A stretch of DNA of 64,000 nucleotides from Pseudomonadota bacterium (GTDB lineage Bacteria; Pseudomonadota; Alphaproteobacteria; Rhodobacterales; Rhodobacteraceae), in contig JAIUPD010000003.1 in assembly GCA_020161615.1 (NCBI GenBank), positions 186,001 through 250,000 of the forward strand, given 5' to 3'. Below the pieces are notes generated by a model. That model did not search any database and had not been told where the DNA came from. It was given only the letters and a program-made list of their open reading frames with translations. Below are positions 14,462 through 50,340 of this stretch, one piece after another (the first letter of the stretch is position 1; each line of letters starts with the position of its first letter). Both the position numbers and the translations under genes were made by a program.

Positions 14462-14979
14462 GCGGCAGGGGTCGGTTTCGGCGGAAGCTTCGGCAGCAGC
14501 GAGGCCGGATCGAAGCGGGCACCGCCCCGCTCGACGATCAGCGCGTCCGTGCGGCCGGCTTCATGCGCCTTGTAGGTCTCGGGCTTCCACATCTTGAAGT
14601 GGCTGCCGACACCGATGAAATAGATGCGGTCGTCGAGATCGAGCTTTTTGCGCAGGCGCTGCGGCAGGACGATGCGTCCGTCGTCGCCCAGCTGCACATC
14701 CATCGAGGAGCCGAGGAAGAAGGTTTCGGCGATCTCGCGCTCTTCGGTGCCCTCGTCCAGAAGCTCGATGCGCTCTTCGATCTTCTCCATCTCCTGCCGC
14801 GTGTAGCAGCGCAGGTGATTGAGCGAGTCGGTGCCATAGACGATGACAAAGGTCGGCCGGTCGCCCTGGGCCATCAGGTGATCGCCCGCGGCGATGACAG
14901 GACGAAACGCGGCGGGAATGGAGACGCGCCCCTTCCCGTCGATGCCCTGTTCGTCGTCGCTGCGAAATCTGAGCGACAC
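14458..14979 (-). CDS. mraZ: transcriptional regulator MraZ
   Basis: A 173-residue protein with two AbrB-like SpoVT/MraZ half domains: first [13 protein letters not shown], then [19 protein letters not shown]. MraZ is the first gene of the dcw cluster in most bacteria and binds repeated TGGGN motifs upstream of itself. GTG start at 14979 is set by AGGAG at the right distance; longer in-frame starts lack a ribosome site. The many TGGGN-type repeats upstream suggest self-regulation here. Confidence 0.95.
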
Positions 14980-15453
14980 GCCGCATTCTCCTGTTGCTCC
15001 ACGATCCCGGGAGCGCCAAAATTGAAACGGCGGCTCGGGTGCTGCCATACCCGAGCCGCCGCCCTCGTCCCACTGCGGGGTCGCCTGGTCACGTAACCGT
15101 CTTTACTAGGGGGGGGATGAAAGACGTCTGCTCGCTACGCTCCAGATCTTGATGTGAAGTTGCCTGTAGTTACTGCCTTGGTATCGGAGGATCTTTTTTG
15201 TGTCCTTCCATGGTCCTTTGATGCCATGGGATTTCGCGGATATCAACGGGAATTCGAGGGAACGCGCAGGTCCTTCGGGGCTTGAATCCACAAGCCGTTG
15301 GGACACAGGGCGCCGCGACACAAGATATCGTCCGGCCCGTCTGTCACCCCACCAGATAAAGCGCTAACGGGCCCTTCCAAGGCCGCCGTGAGAATCGTCG
15401 GCCAGGGCGCTCTTTGTGGCCGCAGGGACACACGCAATCGTTAAGATTAATTA
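14980..15453. other. non-coding leader side of the mraZ upstream region
   Basis: No supported gene. The part at about 15110-15260 is visibly less GC-rich than its surroundings and contains a run of nine G (15109-15117). Open frames here (for example a 71-codon one on the minus strand) have no recognisable product. No rnpB or tmRNA signature was found on either strand. Probably part of the dcw leader. Confidence 0.4.
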
Positions 15454-17053: not shown

Positions 17054-17283
17054 GGGGGACTCCTGTTCCTTCAGAATCGGTTTGCCCTAACCTGTCCGGG
17101 AATCGGGCCGAGGCAACCCCCTGCGGCCCCCGCTCGAAAAGGGACATTCTGCCGCAGGCCGAGCGCTTTCGGGGTACGCGCGCCCCCGCCGAAGGCGACC
17201 TTGGTCGTCAAGATACACCCCCAAGACGGGTTTCCCCTACGTCGCCATGCTGTCGCTGCATAGCAGCATTGCCGTGAGGAGGG

Positions 17284-17312
17284 ATTGTGCAAGCGCAGCA
17301 ATTGGGCCATCT
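17284..17312 (+). promoter_or_regulatory. possible sigma-32-type promoter of the DUF1127-CcsR locus
   Basis: ATTGTG (17284-17289) and CCATCT (17307-17312) are loosely like the heat-shock sigma -35 (CTTGAA) and -10 (CCCCATNT) elements at a suitable distance. The counterpart in R. sphaeroides is RpoHI/RpoHII dependent. Nothing better was seen in 17054-17384. A short palindrome GCTGC-ATA-GCAGC is at 17255-17267. Confidence 0.25.
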
Positions 17313-17384
17313 TTGCTTCAACGGCGAAACAAATTCACCAGCCCGGCTGGGAAGATCTCGCCTCGAAACGAAAAGGTAATCACC

Positions 17385-17606
17385 ATGGCTTACGCCTCTG
17401 CACATACGACCCGCGCGACCGGCGTGTTCGGCCAGATCGCCGAAGTCTTCTCGTCGCTGCGGACGGCTTGGGCGCGCTCGCGCGTCTATGTCCAGACCTA
17501 TAACGAGCTGAATGCGCTGACCAGCCGCGAACTGGCCGATCTGGGCATCAGCCGCTCGATGATCTCGCGCCTGGCCTACGAGGCCGCCTACGGCCGCGAC
17601 GCTTAA
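17385..17606 (+). CDS. DUF1127 small basic protein, CcaF1-like
   Basis: A 73-residue protein whose C-terminal half is a DUF1127 domain (YVQTYNELNALTSRELADLG followed by ISRSMISRLAYEAAYGRDA). Start MAYASAHTTRAT at 17385 with AAAGG in front. In R. sphaeroides a DUF1127 protein encoded at the head of the CcsR RNA genes (RSP_6037, CcaF1) acts on processing and stability of those RNAs. The same order here, DUF1127 followed at once by the RNA array, makes this its likely counterpart. A small hairpin GGCCC-TGAG-GGGCC (17615-17628) separates it from the first RNA. Confidence 0.85.
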   Translation: MAYASAHTTRATGVFGQIAEVFSSLRTAWARSRVYVQTYNELNALTSRELADLGISRSMISRLAYEAAYGRDA

Positions 17607-17642
17607 GAATTCCGGGCCCTGAGGGGCCTGTGATCGAAACGA

Positions 17643-17710
17643 CGGCCCCTCCTCCTCCCTGGGCCGATCGTGCAAGGAACCGCCGCTTCCTCCTCCCTGC
17701 GGTACGGTTC
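17643..17710 (+). ncRNA. CcsR/cuckoo-type RNA, unit 1
   Basis: Two hairpins that each show a 12-nt loop containing CCTCCTCCC. Hairpin 1: stem CGGCCC (17643-17648)/GGGCCG (17661-17666), loop CTCCTCCTCCCT. Hairpin 2: stem GAACCG+CCGC (17677-17686)/GCGG-TA-CGGTTC (17699-17710), loop TTCCTCCTCCCT, with a 2-nt bulge on the 3' side. Pairs of such hairpins define the cuckoo RNA family (CcsR1-4 in R. sphaeroides). The loop is complementary to the Shine-Dalgarno core GGAGGAGG. Probably cut from a transcript that starts before DUF1127. Confidence 0.85.
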
Positions 17711-17724
17711 CGACCTGTTGCTGA

Positions 17725-17794
17725 GGCCCCTCCTCCTCCCTGGGCCGAAGGCACTCCGGCGCGGTTCCCCCTCCTCCTCCCTGGGGAACCGCGC
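17725..17794 (+). ncRNA. CcsR/cuckoo-type RNA, unit 2
   Basis: Hairpin 3: GGCCC (17725-17729)/GGGCC (17742-17746). Hairpin 4: GCGCGGTTCCCC (17759-17770)/GGGGAACCGCGC (17783-17794), a perfect 12-bp stem. Both have the loop CTCCTCCTCCCT. The stems differ completely between units while the loops are constant, so the loop is the conserved element. Between this unit and the next lie further GC-rich dyads (17795-17835). Confidence 0.85.
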
Positions 17795-17840
17795 CCCGAA
17801 TTCCGGGGCTCCCCGCCAGGCGGGCCGGTCCCAAAGGTTA

Positions 17841-17913
17841 CGGATGCCCCTCCTCCTCCCTGGGTGTCCGTTCGTGGCGCGGCGATCCTTCCTCCTCCCT
17901 GGATCGCCGCGCC
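17841..17913 (+). ncRNA. CcsR/cuckoo-type RNA, unit 3
   Basis: Hairpin 5: CGGATGCCC (17841-17849)/GGGTGTCCG (17862-17870), closed with two G-U pairs, loop CTCCTCCTCCCT. Hairpin 6: GGCGCGGCGATCC (17876-17888)/GGATCGCCGCGCC (17901-17913), a perfect 13-bp stem, loop TTCCTCCTCCCT. The G-U pairs and fully different stems show compensatory change, which supports real RNA structure. Confidence 0.85.
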
Positions 17914-17955
17914 CCAAACAGGCGGCGGACGGTCCTCCCCCGAACGCCGATGATG

Positions 17956-17999
17956 ACGCGGCTGCCCACCTCCTCCCGGGCAGCCGCGTTTTTTGTTTT
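17956..17999 (+). terminator. terminator of the CcsR array, itself with a CCTCCTCCC loop
   Basis: A 12-bp perfect stem ACGCGGCTGCCC (17956-17967)/GGGCAGCCGCGT (17978-17989) with loop ACCTCCTCCC, followed by TTTTTTGTTTT. It ends the DUF1127-CcsR transcript. Because its loop repeats the anti-Shine-Dalgarno motif, it is a seventh copy of the element and may work as part of a fourth small RNA. Confidence 0.9.
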
Positions 18000-18144
18000 C
18001 GCCCCGCAGTTTCAAGGTGAGTGAGGGATGCCCATTTTCCGGGCAGACCCCCGGATTCTCGCATATTGCGACGACATCCCGCGTTTTTGCTTCACCGGAA
18101 ATAGAATTACAGTCACTTATGGACTGCTTGGTAAAGAACGGGCC

Positions 18145-47108: not shown

Positions 47109-47681
47109 TCAGCGGCCCATCTTGCTGAGCTTGGCTTCCAGCGCGGCCAGTTGGCGGCGGATCGCGGTCAGATCCTCGGCATCGTCGCTGCCGCCCTCGG
47201 CCGCGGTCTCGCCCGGTTGCAGGCCGGGCATGTTCTTCCAGCCGGCCATCATGCTTTCCATGAAGGCGGCCTGCTGGCGCTGCATCTCGGCAAAGCCGGG
47301 CATCTTCGCCATCTGCGCCATCATCGGGTTCATGGCGCTCATCTGCTCGGCCAGTTTCGGCCCTTCCTTCAGCATTTCGAAGGACATGGCCAGGAATTGC
47401 GGCACCACGCTCTGCGCCTGCGCGGTATAGCTGCGCACCAGATCGGTCAGCACATCCAGCGGCAGGACATTCTCGCCCCGGCTTTCGTGTTCGGCGACGA
47501 TCTGCAACAGATATTGCCGCGTCAGATCATCGCCCGTCTTCAGGTCGACGATCTGCACCTCGCGGCCCGCGCGGATGAAACCGGCGATATCCTCGAGCGT
47601 GACGTAATCGCTGCTTTCCGTGTTGTAGAGCCGTCGAGAGGCGTAGCGCTTGATCAGAAGCGGCTTGTCGGACTCGGCCAC
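47109..47681 (-). CDS. phaR: polyhydroxyalkanoate synthesis regulator PhaR
   Basis: About 190 residues. The N-terminal PHB/PHA accumulation DNA-binding domain (LLIKRYASRRLYNTESSDYV, TLEDIAGFIRAGREVQIVD) is followed by a PHB-binding region (GENVLPLDVLTDLVRSY) and a Met-rich helix. PhaR represses phaP and itself until it is drawn off by PHB granules. GTG 47681 is preferred because GGGGAG stands 7-8 nt before it; ATG 47702 is the longer choice and overlaps the putative operator region. Confidence 0.92.
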   Translation of the reverse strand: MAESDKPLLIKRYASRRLYNTESSDYVTLEDIAGFIRAGREVQIVDLKTGDDLTRQYLLQIVAEHESRGENVLPLDVLTDLVRSYTAQAQSVVPQFLAMSFEMLKEGPKLAEQMSAMNPMMAQMAKMPGFAEMQRQQAAFMESMMAGWKNMPGLQPGETAAEGGSDDAEDLTAIRRQLAALEAKLSKMGR

Positions 47682-47704
47682 GTCGGTTGCTCCCCGTATC
47701 ATTT

Positions 47705-47715
47705 TTGCATTGCAG
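47705..47715 (-). promoter_or_regulatory. PhaR box at phaR
   Basis: CTGCAATGCAA on the minus strand, one mismatch from CTGC-N3-GCAG, directly before phaR. Suits autoregulation. Confidence 0.5.
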
Positions 47716-47824
47716 CGAGACTAGACCGCGATTTCGCTGCGGGAAACAGGATTCTTTGCGCGGATTAGACCAAGCGCTCAAAAACCGGGCAGCCTGCGGG
47801 CGTCAGATCCCGGCGAAACGCAAA

Positions 47825-47846
47825 GGGGCGGGCTTTCGCCCGCCCC
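47825..47846 (-). terminator. terminator of phaP
   Basis: Perfect 9-bp stem GGGGCGGGC-TTTC-GCCCGCCCC between phaP and phaR, followed on the minus strand by only three T (TTTGCG). The rest of 47716-47916 shows nothing else. Confidence 0.55.
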
Positions 47847-47916
47847 CGACGCCCGGGTGGGAGGAACCCCGGCGTCCGCCTTCAGCGAGGCAGGGCCCGG
47901 TGGCCCCGCCGCGCGA

Positions 47917-48396
47917 TCACTTCGCTGCAGCGCCGGCTTTCTTGGCGGCAGCGGTCACTTCGTCGGTCGCTTTCTTGGCGGCAGCGGTCATGTCGGCGGT
48001 CGCCTTCTGCACCGCAGCGGTGGCCTCGGCCGACATGTCCTTGCCGGCGGCGAGCATCAGCTCGACGGTGTCCATCTGCACGCGCTTGGCGATCTCGGCG
48101 AAAGCGGCCATGTGCTCGGCAGCCATCTCGGCCGAGGCCGAGGCGAAATCGGTATAGGCCTTGGCGTATTCAGCGGGCTCTTCCTTGACGGTCGAGACTT
48201 CGCCGATCTTGGCCAGGGTCGATTTGGTCCATTTGGACGAAACTTCGGCCGATTTCTCGGCGGCTTCCAGCACGACCTTGCTCATTTTCTCGCCCAGGGC
48301 AGCCTGGGTCTTGAACACGTCCTGCATCGCCTTGGTGTCGACCGGGAAGGCGCCCATCATGTCCTGCATGACTTTGGTGAAATCGTTCTTCGCCAT
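47917..48396 (-). CDS. phaP: phasin PhaP
   Basis: A 159-residue all-helical amphipathic protein (Phasin_2-type: MMGAFPVDTKAMQDVFKTQA, SEVSSKWTKSTLAKIGEVS-like middle) with an Ala/Lys-rich tail (AAKKATDEVTAAAKKAGAAAK, in part). Phasins coat PHB granules and set their size and number. AAGGAGAGAG precedes ATG 48396. Its promoter carries two PhaR boxes in an 18-bp inverted repeat. Codon choice suggests strong expression. Confidence 0.93.
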   Translation of the reverse strand: MAKNDFTKVMQDMMGAFPVDTKAMQDVFKTQAALGEKMSKVVLEAAEKSAEVSSKWTKSTLAKIGEVSTVKEEPAEYAKAYTDFASASAEMAAEHMAAFAEIAKRVQMDTVELMLAAGKDMSAEATAAVQKATADMTAAAKKATDEVTAAAKKAGAAAK

Positions 48397-48448
48397 TTTC
48401 TCTCTCCTTGCTTGGATCCCGCCATCCAGGACCCTGCGTCATGAGGAG

Positions 48449-48501
48449 AATATGGATGCTGCAGTGCAGAAAATCAAGGTGGTTTTTCTGCACTGCAGCA
48501 T
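48449..48501 (-). promoter_or_regulatory. phaP promoter with double PhaR operator
   Basis: An 18-bp perfect inverted repeat: ATGCTGCAGTGCAGAAAA (48456-48473) and its exact reverse complement (48484-48501), 10 nt apart. Each arm holds CTGC-N3-GCAG, the PhaR box. On the minus strand -35 TTGATT (48477-48472) and -10 CATATT (48454-48449) are 17 nt apart, and the proximal box sits between them, so bound PhaR would block polymerase. Confidence 0.8.
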
Positions 48502-48518
48502 TTTCTCTAACCCGTTGA

Positions 48519-50306
48519 TCAACCGTTCGGATTGGCCAGAACATAGGTCCCGGGTGCAGGCGCCAGCGCCGAATCACCCACGGCCCGGGCAGAAATCAGC
48601 TTGCCCGAACGCGCCTTCAGCCATTCCTCCCAGCGCGGCCACCACGAGCCGGGATGATATTCGGCCTCGGCCTTCCAGCCCTCGGCATCGCCGTCGAGCG
48701 GATGGTCCGAGGTGTAATGGCCGTATTTCTTCTTGCTGGGCGGATTGACGATCCCGGCGATATGACCGCTTTCCGACAGGATGAAGGTCTTGTTGGTCGA
48801 TCCCATCTTCGAGACACCGCGGAAGCTCGATCGCCAGGCGGCGATATGATCCGTCTCGCAGGCGATGGCGCAGACCGGCACCTTCACGCCCGAGATATGC
48901 AGCTTTTCGCCCAGCATCTCGAACCCGTCGGAGCAGAGCCTGTCCTGCTGGCAGAGCCCCCGCAGATATTCCACCACCATCCGACCCGGCAGGTTGGTGC
49001 CATCGCCGTTCCAGTAGAGCAGATCGAAGGCGGGCGGTGCCTCGCCCAGCATGTAGCTGCGGATCGCCGGGCCATAGATCAGGTCGTTCGAGCGCAGATA
49101 GCTGAAGGTCTTGGTCATGTAATAGGAATGCAGATAGCCCTTGGCCTCGGCCTCGGCTTCGATCCCGTCCACGAAATCGTCCTCTAGGAAGACGCCCACC
49201 TCGCCCTGGTCCGAGAAATCGGTCAGCGTGGTGAAGAAGGTGGCGGATTTGACCGACTTGTCCTTGCGCTTGTCCAGCAGCGCCAGCGTCAGGCTCAGCG
49301 TCGTCCCGGCGATGCAATAGCCGATGACATTGACCTGTTTGACCGCGCAGAGGTCCTTCACCTTGGCGATGGCCTCCAGATACCCTTCCTCGACATAGGT
49401 ATCCATGCCAACGTCGGCATAGCGGGCGTCAGGGTTCACCCATGAGACGACGAAGAGCGTATAGCCCTGATCGACGATCCATTTGATCAGACTGTTCTGC
49501 GGCTTCAGGTCCAGGATGTAGAACTTGTTGATCCAGGGCGGGAAGATCAGTAGCGGCGTCTCGTGCACCTGCTCGGTGGTCGGCTTGTACTGGATCAGTT
49601 CGAACATGCGGTTGCGGAACACGACCGACCCCTCGGAGGTGCCGATATTGCCGCCGACCTTGAAGGCCTCGCGGTCCGACAGGGTGACCAGAAGCTCGCC
49701 GTTGTTGGCCTCGATGTCGCGGACCAGGTTTTCCAGCCCCTTCACTAGGCTCTCGCCCTCGGTCTCGACCGCCTTCATCAGCGCGTCGGGGTTGGTGCCC
49801 AGAAAATTGGTCGGCGCCATCATGTCGATGATCTGCCGGCCGAAGAATTCCAGCCGGCTGCGCTCGCGCGGATCGAGCGTATCGAGGTTCTCGATCGCTT
49901 TCTCGATGGCCTCGGAGGACAGCAGATATTGCTGCTTGATATAGTTGAAATAAGGATGGGTCCGCCACAACGGGTTGGAAAACCGCTTGTCGTCCGGGGT
50001 GTTGTCCTCGGGCGCGACCAGGGGATGTTCGCGCAGGGCTTCCTGGGCCTCGACGAAATGCTTCAGCGTCTTGCCCCAGTAGCCGACCTGCTGTTCCAGC
50101 ACCTTCGAGGGGTTCTGCACCATCTCCTGCCAATAGGCCGAGGCAGCGCGCAGATAGAGCGAGGGATCGGGGGCCTGCAGTTCGTTGCGCTGCGGCTGCT
50201 TTTTCGCGAACGCAGCAATCAGACGTTGCGTCAGCGTCTCGATCCTCGCCAGATTGGCGTTCAGGACCTCGAGATTGGCGGATTCTTCGTACTCGGAAGT
50301 TGCCAT
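48519..50306 (-). CDS. phaC: class I poly(3-hydroxybutyrate) synthase
   Basis: A 595-residue class I PHA synthase that polymerises 3-hydroxybutyryl-CoA on the granule surface. The lipase-like box GYCIAG gives catalytic Cys331; Asp486 (CETDHIAAW) and His515 (ESGHIAGIVNPP) complete the triad. Other family marks: PPWINKFYILDL, WNGDGTNLPG and HPGSWWPRWEEWL. The length is normal. It diverges from phaZ with a PhaR box between them. phaA and phaB are not in the window. Confidence 0.97.
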   Translation of the reverse strand: MATSEYEESANLEVLNANLARIETLTQRLIAAFAKKQPQRNELQAPDPSLYLRAASAYWQEMVQNPSKVLEQQVGYWGKTLKHFVEAQEALREHPLVAPEDNTPDDKRFSNPLWRTHPYFNYIKQQYLLSSEAIEKAIENLDTLDPRERSRLEFFGRQIIDMMAPTNFLGTNPDALMKAVETEGESLVKGLENLVRDIEANNGELLVTLSDREAFKVGGNIGTSEGSVVFRNRMFELIQYKPTTEQVHETPLLIFPPWINKFYILDLKPQNSLIKWIVDQGYTLFVVSWVNPDARYADVGMDTYVEEGYLEAIAKVKDLCAVKQVNVIGYCIAGTTLSLTLALLDKRKDKSVKSATFFTTLTDFSDQGEVGVFLEDDFVDGIEAEAEAKGYLHSYYMTKTFSYLRSNDLIYGPAIRSYMLGEAPPAFDLLYWNGDGTNLPGRMVVEYLRGLCQQDRLCSDGFEMLGEKLHISGVKVPVCAIACETDHIAAWRSSFRGVSKMGSTNKTFILSESGHIAGIVNPPSKKKYGHYTSDHPLDGDAEGWKAEAEYHPGSWWPRWEEWLKARSGKLISARAVGDSALAPAPGTYVLANPNG

Positions 50307-50329
50307 TTAAACTTGTCCCCCCTAAACTC

Positions 50330-50340
50330 CTGCGGTGCAG
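50330..50340. promoter_or_regulatory. PhaR box between phaC and phaZ
   Basis: CTGCGGTGCAG matches CTGC-N3-GCAG exactly. It is the only such site in the 104-bp divergent gap, so PhaR may act on both genes. Confidence 0.6.

Follow-up and report, generated by a model that had tools for sequence, protein, structure and literature searches.

The closest described counterpart of the locus reported here is the ccaF1-CcsR1-4 operon of Rhodobacter (Cereibacter) sphaeroides, in which four RNAs, each built of two hairpins whose loops carry CCUCCUCCC, come after a DUF1127 gene. The published description of this locus covers its RpoHI/HII promoter and the roles of RNase E and of the DUF1127 protein, CcaF1 (PMC10253847). 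SmelA075 and SmelA099, cuckoo RNAs from Rhizobiales, likewise show CCUCCUCCC in the loops of hairpins that are arranged in tandem and vary in their stems; the same source describes SmelA075 as stress-induced and the cuckoo loop as an anti-Shine-Dalgarno sequence (PMC3927594).

We analysed a window of 64,000 nucleotides, part of a 4.87-Mb genome in 26 contigs, in which a short DUF1127 gene lies directly upstream of a series of hairpins, as in other ccaF1-CcsR (CIN1) loci. Synteny, hairpin layout and sub-threshold Rfam matches (CcsR1 and ar14) together identify it as the Pararhodobacter orthologue of the ccaF1-CcsR1-4 operon (the CIN1 locus, or 'cuckoo RNAs'), with a probability that we put at roughly 0.9. 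This agrees with the original prediction of a CcsR/cuckoo locus with a CcaF1-type protein. The genus proposed at that stage, Paracoccus, was rejected: the same-genus genome G010, whose DUF1127 protein is 96% identical, is Pararhodobacter aggregans, and the next named orthologues of this protein are mostly from Pararhodobacter. A literature search of limited coverage found no report of a CcsR locus in Pararhodobacter. The locus is thus real and of a kind already described, in a genus without an earlier report in the literature searched. New here are the family-wide conserved promoter signature and a possible link to the regulator PhaR.

The DUF1127 gene and its hairpin array

The motif CCTCCTCCC occurs 43 times in the 4.87-Mb genome (26 forward and 17 reverse copies), and seven of these copies are packed within 327 bp at the locus, with plus-strand starts at 17651, 17689, 17732, 17773, 17852, 17891 and 17969. 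Each of the seven lies downstream of the DUF1127 gene in the loop of a hairpin (Table 1). The minimum-energy fold of 17607-18000 (394 nt) includes all seven hairpins, and none of 100 shuffled sequences was as stable (z -5.73). When folded singly, six of the seven gave z values of -3.53 to -8.09 relative to shuffles. The third hairpin, H3, was no better than its shuffles (z -0.22) and is therefore recognised through its context and conservation only. Copy positions and fold agree with what had been read from the letters of the window: seven motif-bearing hairpins after a DUF1127 gene, six loops of 12 nt and a terminator loop of 10 nt, perfect stems of up to 13 bp (H4, H6 and H7), and pairing maintained through G-U pairs, of which H5 has two. 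The claim that the stems differ fully was too strong, as a CCC/GGG collar next to the loop is common to H1, H3, H4, H5 and H7, and H1 and H3 have GGCCC/GGGCC in common. H7 is absent from the output of a terminator scan, which allows loops of 3-8 nt only.

Judged by the distances between motifs, the hairpins form the pairs H1-H2, H3-H4, H5-H6 and degenerate-H7. The tandem CCUCCUCCC-loop hairpins typical of CIN1 loci are thus present as seven full copies and one degenerate copy. Counting this eighth hairpin, which precedes the terminator, the array comprises four two-hairpin units, three of them complete, as in Cereibacter johrii; the earlier count of three units plus a terminator is replaced accordingly. 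The position of the degenerate hairpin is occupied by a full CCTCCTCCC in one relative (L006, genome G017) and by CCTCCCCC in L002, L003, L005 and L007.

Table 1 Features of the DUF1127 locus and of the phaR region in the window
Feature	Position	Strand	Remarks
Site A, PhaR-type palindrome CTGCATAGCAG	17256-17266		promoter region; 94-row footprint
Site B, ATTGTGCAAGCGCAGCA	17284-17300	+	includes presumed -35 TTGTGC, 17285-17290
Presumed -10, CCATCT	17307-17312	+	predicted from footprint logo
DUF1127 (ccaF1-type) gene	17385-17606	+	73 aa; PF06568, E 8e-12; orthologues; synteny
Hairpin H1 (unit 1)	17643-17666	+	loop CTCCTCCTCCCT
Hairpin H2 (unit 1)	17676-17711	+	loop TTCCTCCTCCCT; stem interrupted by bulge
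Hairpin H3 (unit 2)	17725-17746	+	5-bp stem
Hairpin H4 (unit 2)	17758-17795	+	13-bp stem; three compensated pairs in relatives
Hairpin H5 (unit 3)	17840-17871	+	10 bp, including two G-U
Hairpin H6 (unit 3)	17876-17913	+	13-bp stem
Degenerate first hairpin (unit 4)	17923-17949	+	loop TCCTCCCCC; weak alone, z -1.50
Terminator hairpin H7 (unit 4)	17955-17998	+	ACCTCCTCCC loop; 13-bp stem; T tract
phaR (possible regulator acting at sites A and B)	47109-47702	-	TIGR01848, 147.5 bits (cut-off 109.45)
Two PhaR-type palindromes, phaP promoter	48459-48498		centres 29 bp apart

In the covariance search suggested with the original prediction, no Rfam model matched at its gathering score, the best CcsR1 (RF02791) match reaching 32.6 bits against a gathering score of 65.3, and the best ar14 (RF02344) match 49.2 bits against 58.8. 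Below these cut-offs, CcsR1 aligned to each of the three complete units (unit 1, 17636-17716, 23.7 bits; unit 2, 17717-17800, E 5.9e-6; unit 3, 17836-17918, E 8.9e-6) and to a 47-nt stretch of the fourth (17952-17998, E 0.037), and ar14 matched twice, end to end (17633-17756 and 17872-17993, E 8.2e-8). The same run returned seven further weak sub-threshold matches (ar7, 6C, Xoo2, sX13 and DUF1874). A CcsR1 match at gathering score is not taken here as a defining feature of a CIN1 locus.

The sequence GAATTCCGGG was observed twice, immediately after the stop codon (17607-17616) and after unit 2 (17798-17807). Within the second copy, CGAATTC is identical in 7/7 aligned members of the genus; the copy after the stop codon varies. 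This element is possibly a processing or start-of-unit signal.

Conservation of stems and gene order

We compared the window with a first round of DUF1127 loci (n = 110), composed of 30 loci, the window's own included, and 80 named loci. An exact CCTCCTCCC occurs at least once in the 1000 nt that follow the gene in all 110, although the loci were sought through the DUF1127 protein and the count is therefore uninformative on hairpins lacking that gene. The number of exact copies ranges from 1 (L024) to 16 (L094), so that RNA dose and redundancy become comparable across species. In two loci, L016 and L021 (14 and 13 motif copies), one two-hairpin unit is present as tandem near-identical copies, which is evidence of recent expansion of the array.

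In a permissive search of the 30 loci, 203 of 209 CCTCCYCC copies were flanked by a stem of at least 4 pairs. As a control that keeps composition, arms were exchanged between hairpins within one locus (750 motif copies, 95 loci). At positions 4, 5 and 6 from the loop the true arms pair with frequencies of 0.80, 0.79 and 0.71, compared with 0.44, 0.49 and 0.48 for the swapped arms; nearer the loop, at positions 1-3, the collar common to the hairpins gives pairing of 0.73-0.81 even between swapped arms. Furthermore, H4, located in 8 of the 30 loci via its linker and loop motif and not via pairing, shows replacements on both sides of the stem at three pairs (C-G to T-A, G-C to A-T and C-G to G-C). 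The stems are thus under structural selection, as originally proposed, and the comparison of stem substitutions in relatives that had been put forward as a check shows that they covary.

The surroundings of the locus are conserved as well. A tblastn search of the 80 named loci with four window proteins found mrp in 78, mraZ in 68, rsmH in 52 and uvrD in 50; the flanks span 3 kb, some less, and some neighbour genes are absent from these counts because the locus sequence ends first. In some named loci, other sequence precedes uvrD. The genes mraZ, rsmH, mrp and uvrD surround the C. johrii gene (L049) as they do the window's, placing both at the same genomic position. The dcw genes lie on the strand opposite to the DUF1127 locus. 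The nearby dcw cluster that had been pointed out is therefore real, but the retention of mrp and mraZ across the named loci marks it as inherited gene order.

It had also been suggested that the loops bind an UpsM-type leader upstream of the dcw genes. Such leaders are reported as a Rhodobacteraceae feature (PMC5089854). However, no GGAGG to which the loops could bind was found on the mRNA strand in 14940-15400, which covers the start of mraZ and the sequence before it, and the R. sphaeroides sRNA that PMC8307010 reports to pair with or act on UpsM is StsR. Pairing of the CcsR loops with a GGAGG in an UpsM-type leader therefore found no support.

A conserved promoter footprint and a possible role for PhaR

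The 110 loci reduce to 95 with distinct upstream sequence. An anchor pattern, TTG[TC]G[CT][AG]NNNGCAG, is found upstream in 94 of these (the exception is L027), and the 94 rows were aligned on it without gaps. This reveals a conserved block of approximately 60 bp, consisting of CCATGC, CTGCATRGCAGCATTG (site A), ATTGTGCANNNGCAGCAT (site B), CCATnTT and CAAC. Conservation follows from the construction for the anchor columns, but not for those of site A, CCATnTT and CAAC. The footprint thus combines a PhaR-type palindrome, CTGCATRGCAG, with ATTGTGCANNNGCAGCA over the presumed -35 element. The TTG of the latter fits RpoH, and CCATCT, the presumed -10, is conserved; for the RpoH promoter of another DUF1127 gene, the -10 is given as TAT (PMC10673084). 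A scan for sigma-70 promoters found nothing. The conserved CAAC (17319-17322), about 8 nt after the -10, is likely the start point of transcription.

The site B core ATTGTGCANNNGCAGCA has a single exact copy in the window's genome. Among 90 relatives, 37 contain 42 exact copies and none contains the reversed control pattern; 39 of the copies fall within Rhodobacteraceae, and 35 of those adjoin a DUF1127 match. We also examined a second set of 40 DUF1127 loci whose central 120 bases are shared with no first-round locus. The anchor was present in 21/21 loci with at least two CCTCCTCC copies, as opposed to 4/19 with fewer, a comparison whose Fisher value suffers from selection, ten of the loci having been taken on purpose from genomes without exact site B. 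None of these ten has two or more motif copies, and one (from G077) has a variant site B. When the ten are left out, the association holds with 21/21 against 3/9 (30 loci, p 1.4e-4). Site B occurs in four hairpin-poor loci, and in two of these, L233 and L252, there are hairpins with shorter CCTCCC-type loops. L233, the G077 locus with the variant site B, has loops with a shortened motif (TTTCCTCCCT and similar) in place of CCTCCTCCC.

PhaR, a polyhydroxybutyrate sensor, is reported to bind CTGCNNNGCAG in R. sphaeroides (PMC12542648). An operator of this type coincides with site A, and 58 of the 94 rows have its exact form close to the footprint. In the window, phaR is not adjacent to the DUF1127 locus; it lies in a row with phaP (phasin) and phaC on the minus strand (47109-50340). 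A further PhaR-type palindrome is seen between phaC and a divergent gene (50330-50340). In relatives, the 3' flanks of phaC contain CTGCN3GCAG in 39 of 40 cases. We tentatively predict that PhaR controls the cuckoo-RNA operon of Rhodobacteraceae, a hypothesis that can be tested and that we rate somewhat below even odds.

A matrix was trained on 75 phaP operators, 74 of which score at least 8. Of the 95 regions preceding DUF1127 genes, 81 reach the same score, compared with 8 of 1113 control windows; the corresponding Fisher value is overstated, as these 95 regions are related by descent. PhaR is present in 290 of the 296 family genomes that are at least 95% complete. Five of the six genomes without it have a DUF1127 match and two (G020 and G205) have a multi-hairpin locus; both of these loci lack site B and an exact site A. 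Among the cuckoo loci whose genomes belong to these 296, site B was found in 35/35 from PhaR-containing genomes (14 first-round and 21 second-set) and in 0/2 from PhaR-less genomes (p 0.0015), a comparison of small numbers and related loci. Exact TTGTGCANNNGCAGCA occurs anywhere in the genome in 234/290 genomes with PhaR and 2/6 without (p 0.017), a noisy count because the reversed control pattern also matches in some genomes. The window's genome has a second exact TTGTGCANNNGCAGCA about 40 nt before a BktB-type beta-ketothiolase gene (L111:957-972; G000:C1:454456-454471). As a link to polyhydroxybutyrate this is a single case that lacks the leading A and CCATnTT, and it was kept as a lead only.

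Several observations fit better with another regulator occupying sites A and B, or with the footprint being merely an extended RpoH-type promoter, and we consider the chances of this explanation to be even. The window's site A has ATA at its centre, which does not match the phaP-type centre (RNY), and the third centre base is A or G in 45 of the 58 exact palindromes near the footprint, compared with 0 of 75 phaP operators. Of the 94 rows, 36 have no exact CTGCN3GCAG close to the footprint. The Cereibacter/Luteovulum loci L044, L047, L049 and L059 carry CCGCATGGCAG and score 4.2, 4.9, 4.2 and 11.5 with the matrix, even though R. sphaeroides is where the operon has been studied. Overlapping site A there is a second dyad, C[CT]ATGC-N7-GCAT[AG]G, and the PhaR-less G020 and G205 both retain it. 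Constant phasing of the two sites was rejected, as their spacing falls into two classes (31.5 or 30.5 bp in 45 rows; 22.5-23.5 bp in 13 rows with a shifted palindrome). The enrichment of matrix matches upstream of DUF1127 genes and the loss of site B and the exact palindrome from both PhaR-less cuckoo loci argue against a regulator other than PhaR. It is the mismatched centre, the missing palindromes, the low Cereibacter scores, the second dyad and the variable spacing that keep the PhaR assignment tentative. Among the matches listed in a literature search of limited coverage, none reports PhaR control of the ccaF1/CcsR locus.

If PhaR does act here, it would leave the DNA as polymer accumulates, which would free the cuckoo operon. 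The carbon-storage state, as well as RpoH stress, would then set the level of a translation-dampening RNA family for which effects on C1 metabolism and pyruvate dehydrogenase are reported, and a single promoter would link carbon storage to the control of translation during stress.

Proposed function and relation to known systems

By analogy with R. sphaeroides, one stress-type promoter would drive a transcript that encodes the DUF1127 RNA-binding protein and, in its 3' UTR, carries the four RNA units, of which the fourth ends in the terminator. RNase E, aided by the DUF1127 protein, would cut this 3' UTR into RNAs of about 80 nt. The CCUCCUCCC loops are copies of the 16S anti-Shine-Dalgarno sequence, in line with the complementarity to Shine-Dalgarno sequences noted in the original prediction; they may pair with the G-rich ribosome-binding sites of mRNAs and thereby lower translation or stability of the targets. 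We infer transcription, processing, binding by Hfq and the protein, and the targets from R. sphaeroides. CcaF1 is reported to complement an Agrobacterium mutant with a phenotype that depends on PhoR contacts (PMC12501420), a reason for caution, as DUF1127 proteins may act via protein contacts.

Alternatively, the main role of the hairpins might be in cis: as a structured 3' UTR they would stabilise the DUF1127 mRNA or hold a store of the protein, and the loops would be where the protein binds and not antisense seeds. In the loci examined the array comes after a DUF1127 gene, partly by construction because the loci were found via that gene, and CcaF1 is described as binding CcsR1 (PMC10371769) and affecting processing (PMC10253847). 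However, the conserved loop is the anti-Shine-Dalgarno sequence itself, recognition of the stems alone would need no fixed pyrimidine loop, and flhR mRNA is described as a target of the CcsR RNAs in R. sphaeroides (PMC8307010). A mainly cis function is therefore improbable. It is far less plausible still that the CT-rich repeats form an array of simple sequence or of mobile hairpins devoid of regulatory function. In its favour, some relatives (such as L016, with its 14 motif copies) have a two-hairpin unit duplicated in tandem almost exactly, but the stems covary and pair beyond swapped arms, the neighbour mrp is the same in 78 of 80 loci, and 7 of the 43 motif copies in the genome sit at this one place. 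An orthologue of the ccaF1-CcsR1-4 operon, acting through its loops on other mRNAs, thus remains the preferred reading.

Cereibacter johrii is a close relative of R. sphaeroides. The genomic place of the R. sphaeroides operon, next to mrp and dcw, was compared through this species, R. sphaeroides itself not being among the loci. C. johrii has eight motif copies in four pairs, whereas the window has seven full motifs: the first hairpin of its unit 4 has decayed to TCCTCCCCC, and the second is the terminator hairpin itself. The two also differ at site A, for which the PhaR-matrix score is 13.8 in the window and 4.2 in C. johrii. SmelA075 and SmelA099, with three and four hairpins respectively, differ in number from the array described here. 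By description only, the promoter can be likened to that of MmgR, an sRNA of Sinorhizobium meliloti that also has a PhaR-type site and is reported to be repressed by PhaR (PMC12542648). Taken across the family, the locus is a collection of anti-Shine-Dalgarno hairpins that keeps the same syntenic position next to the cell-division cluster.
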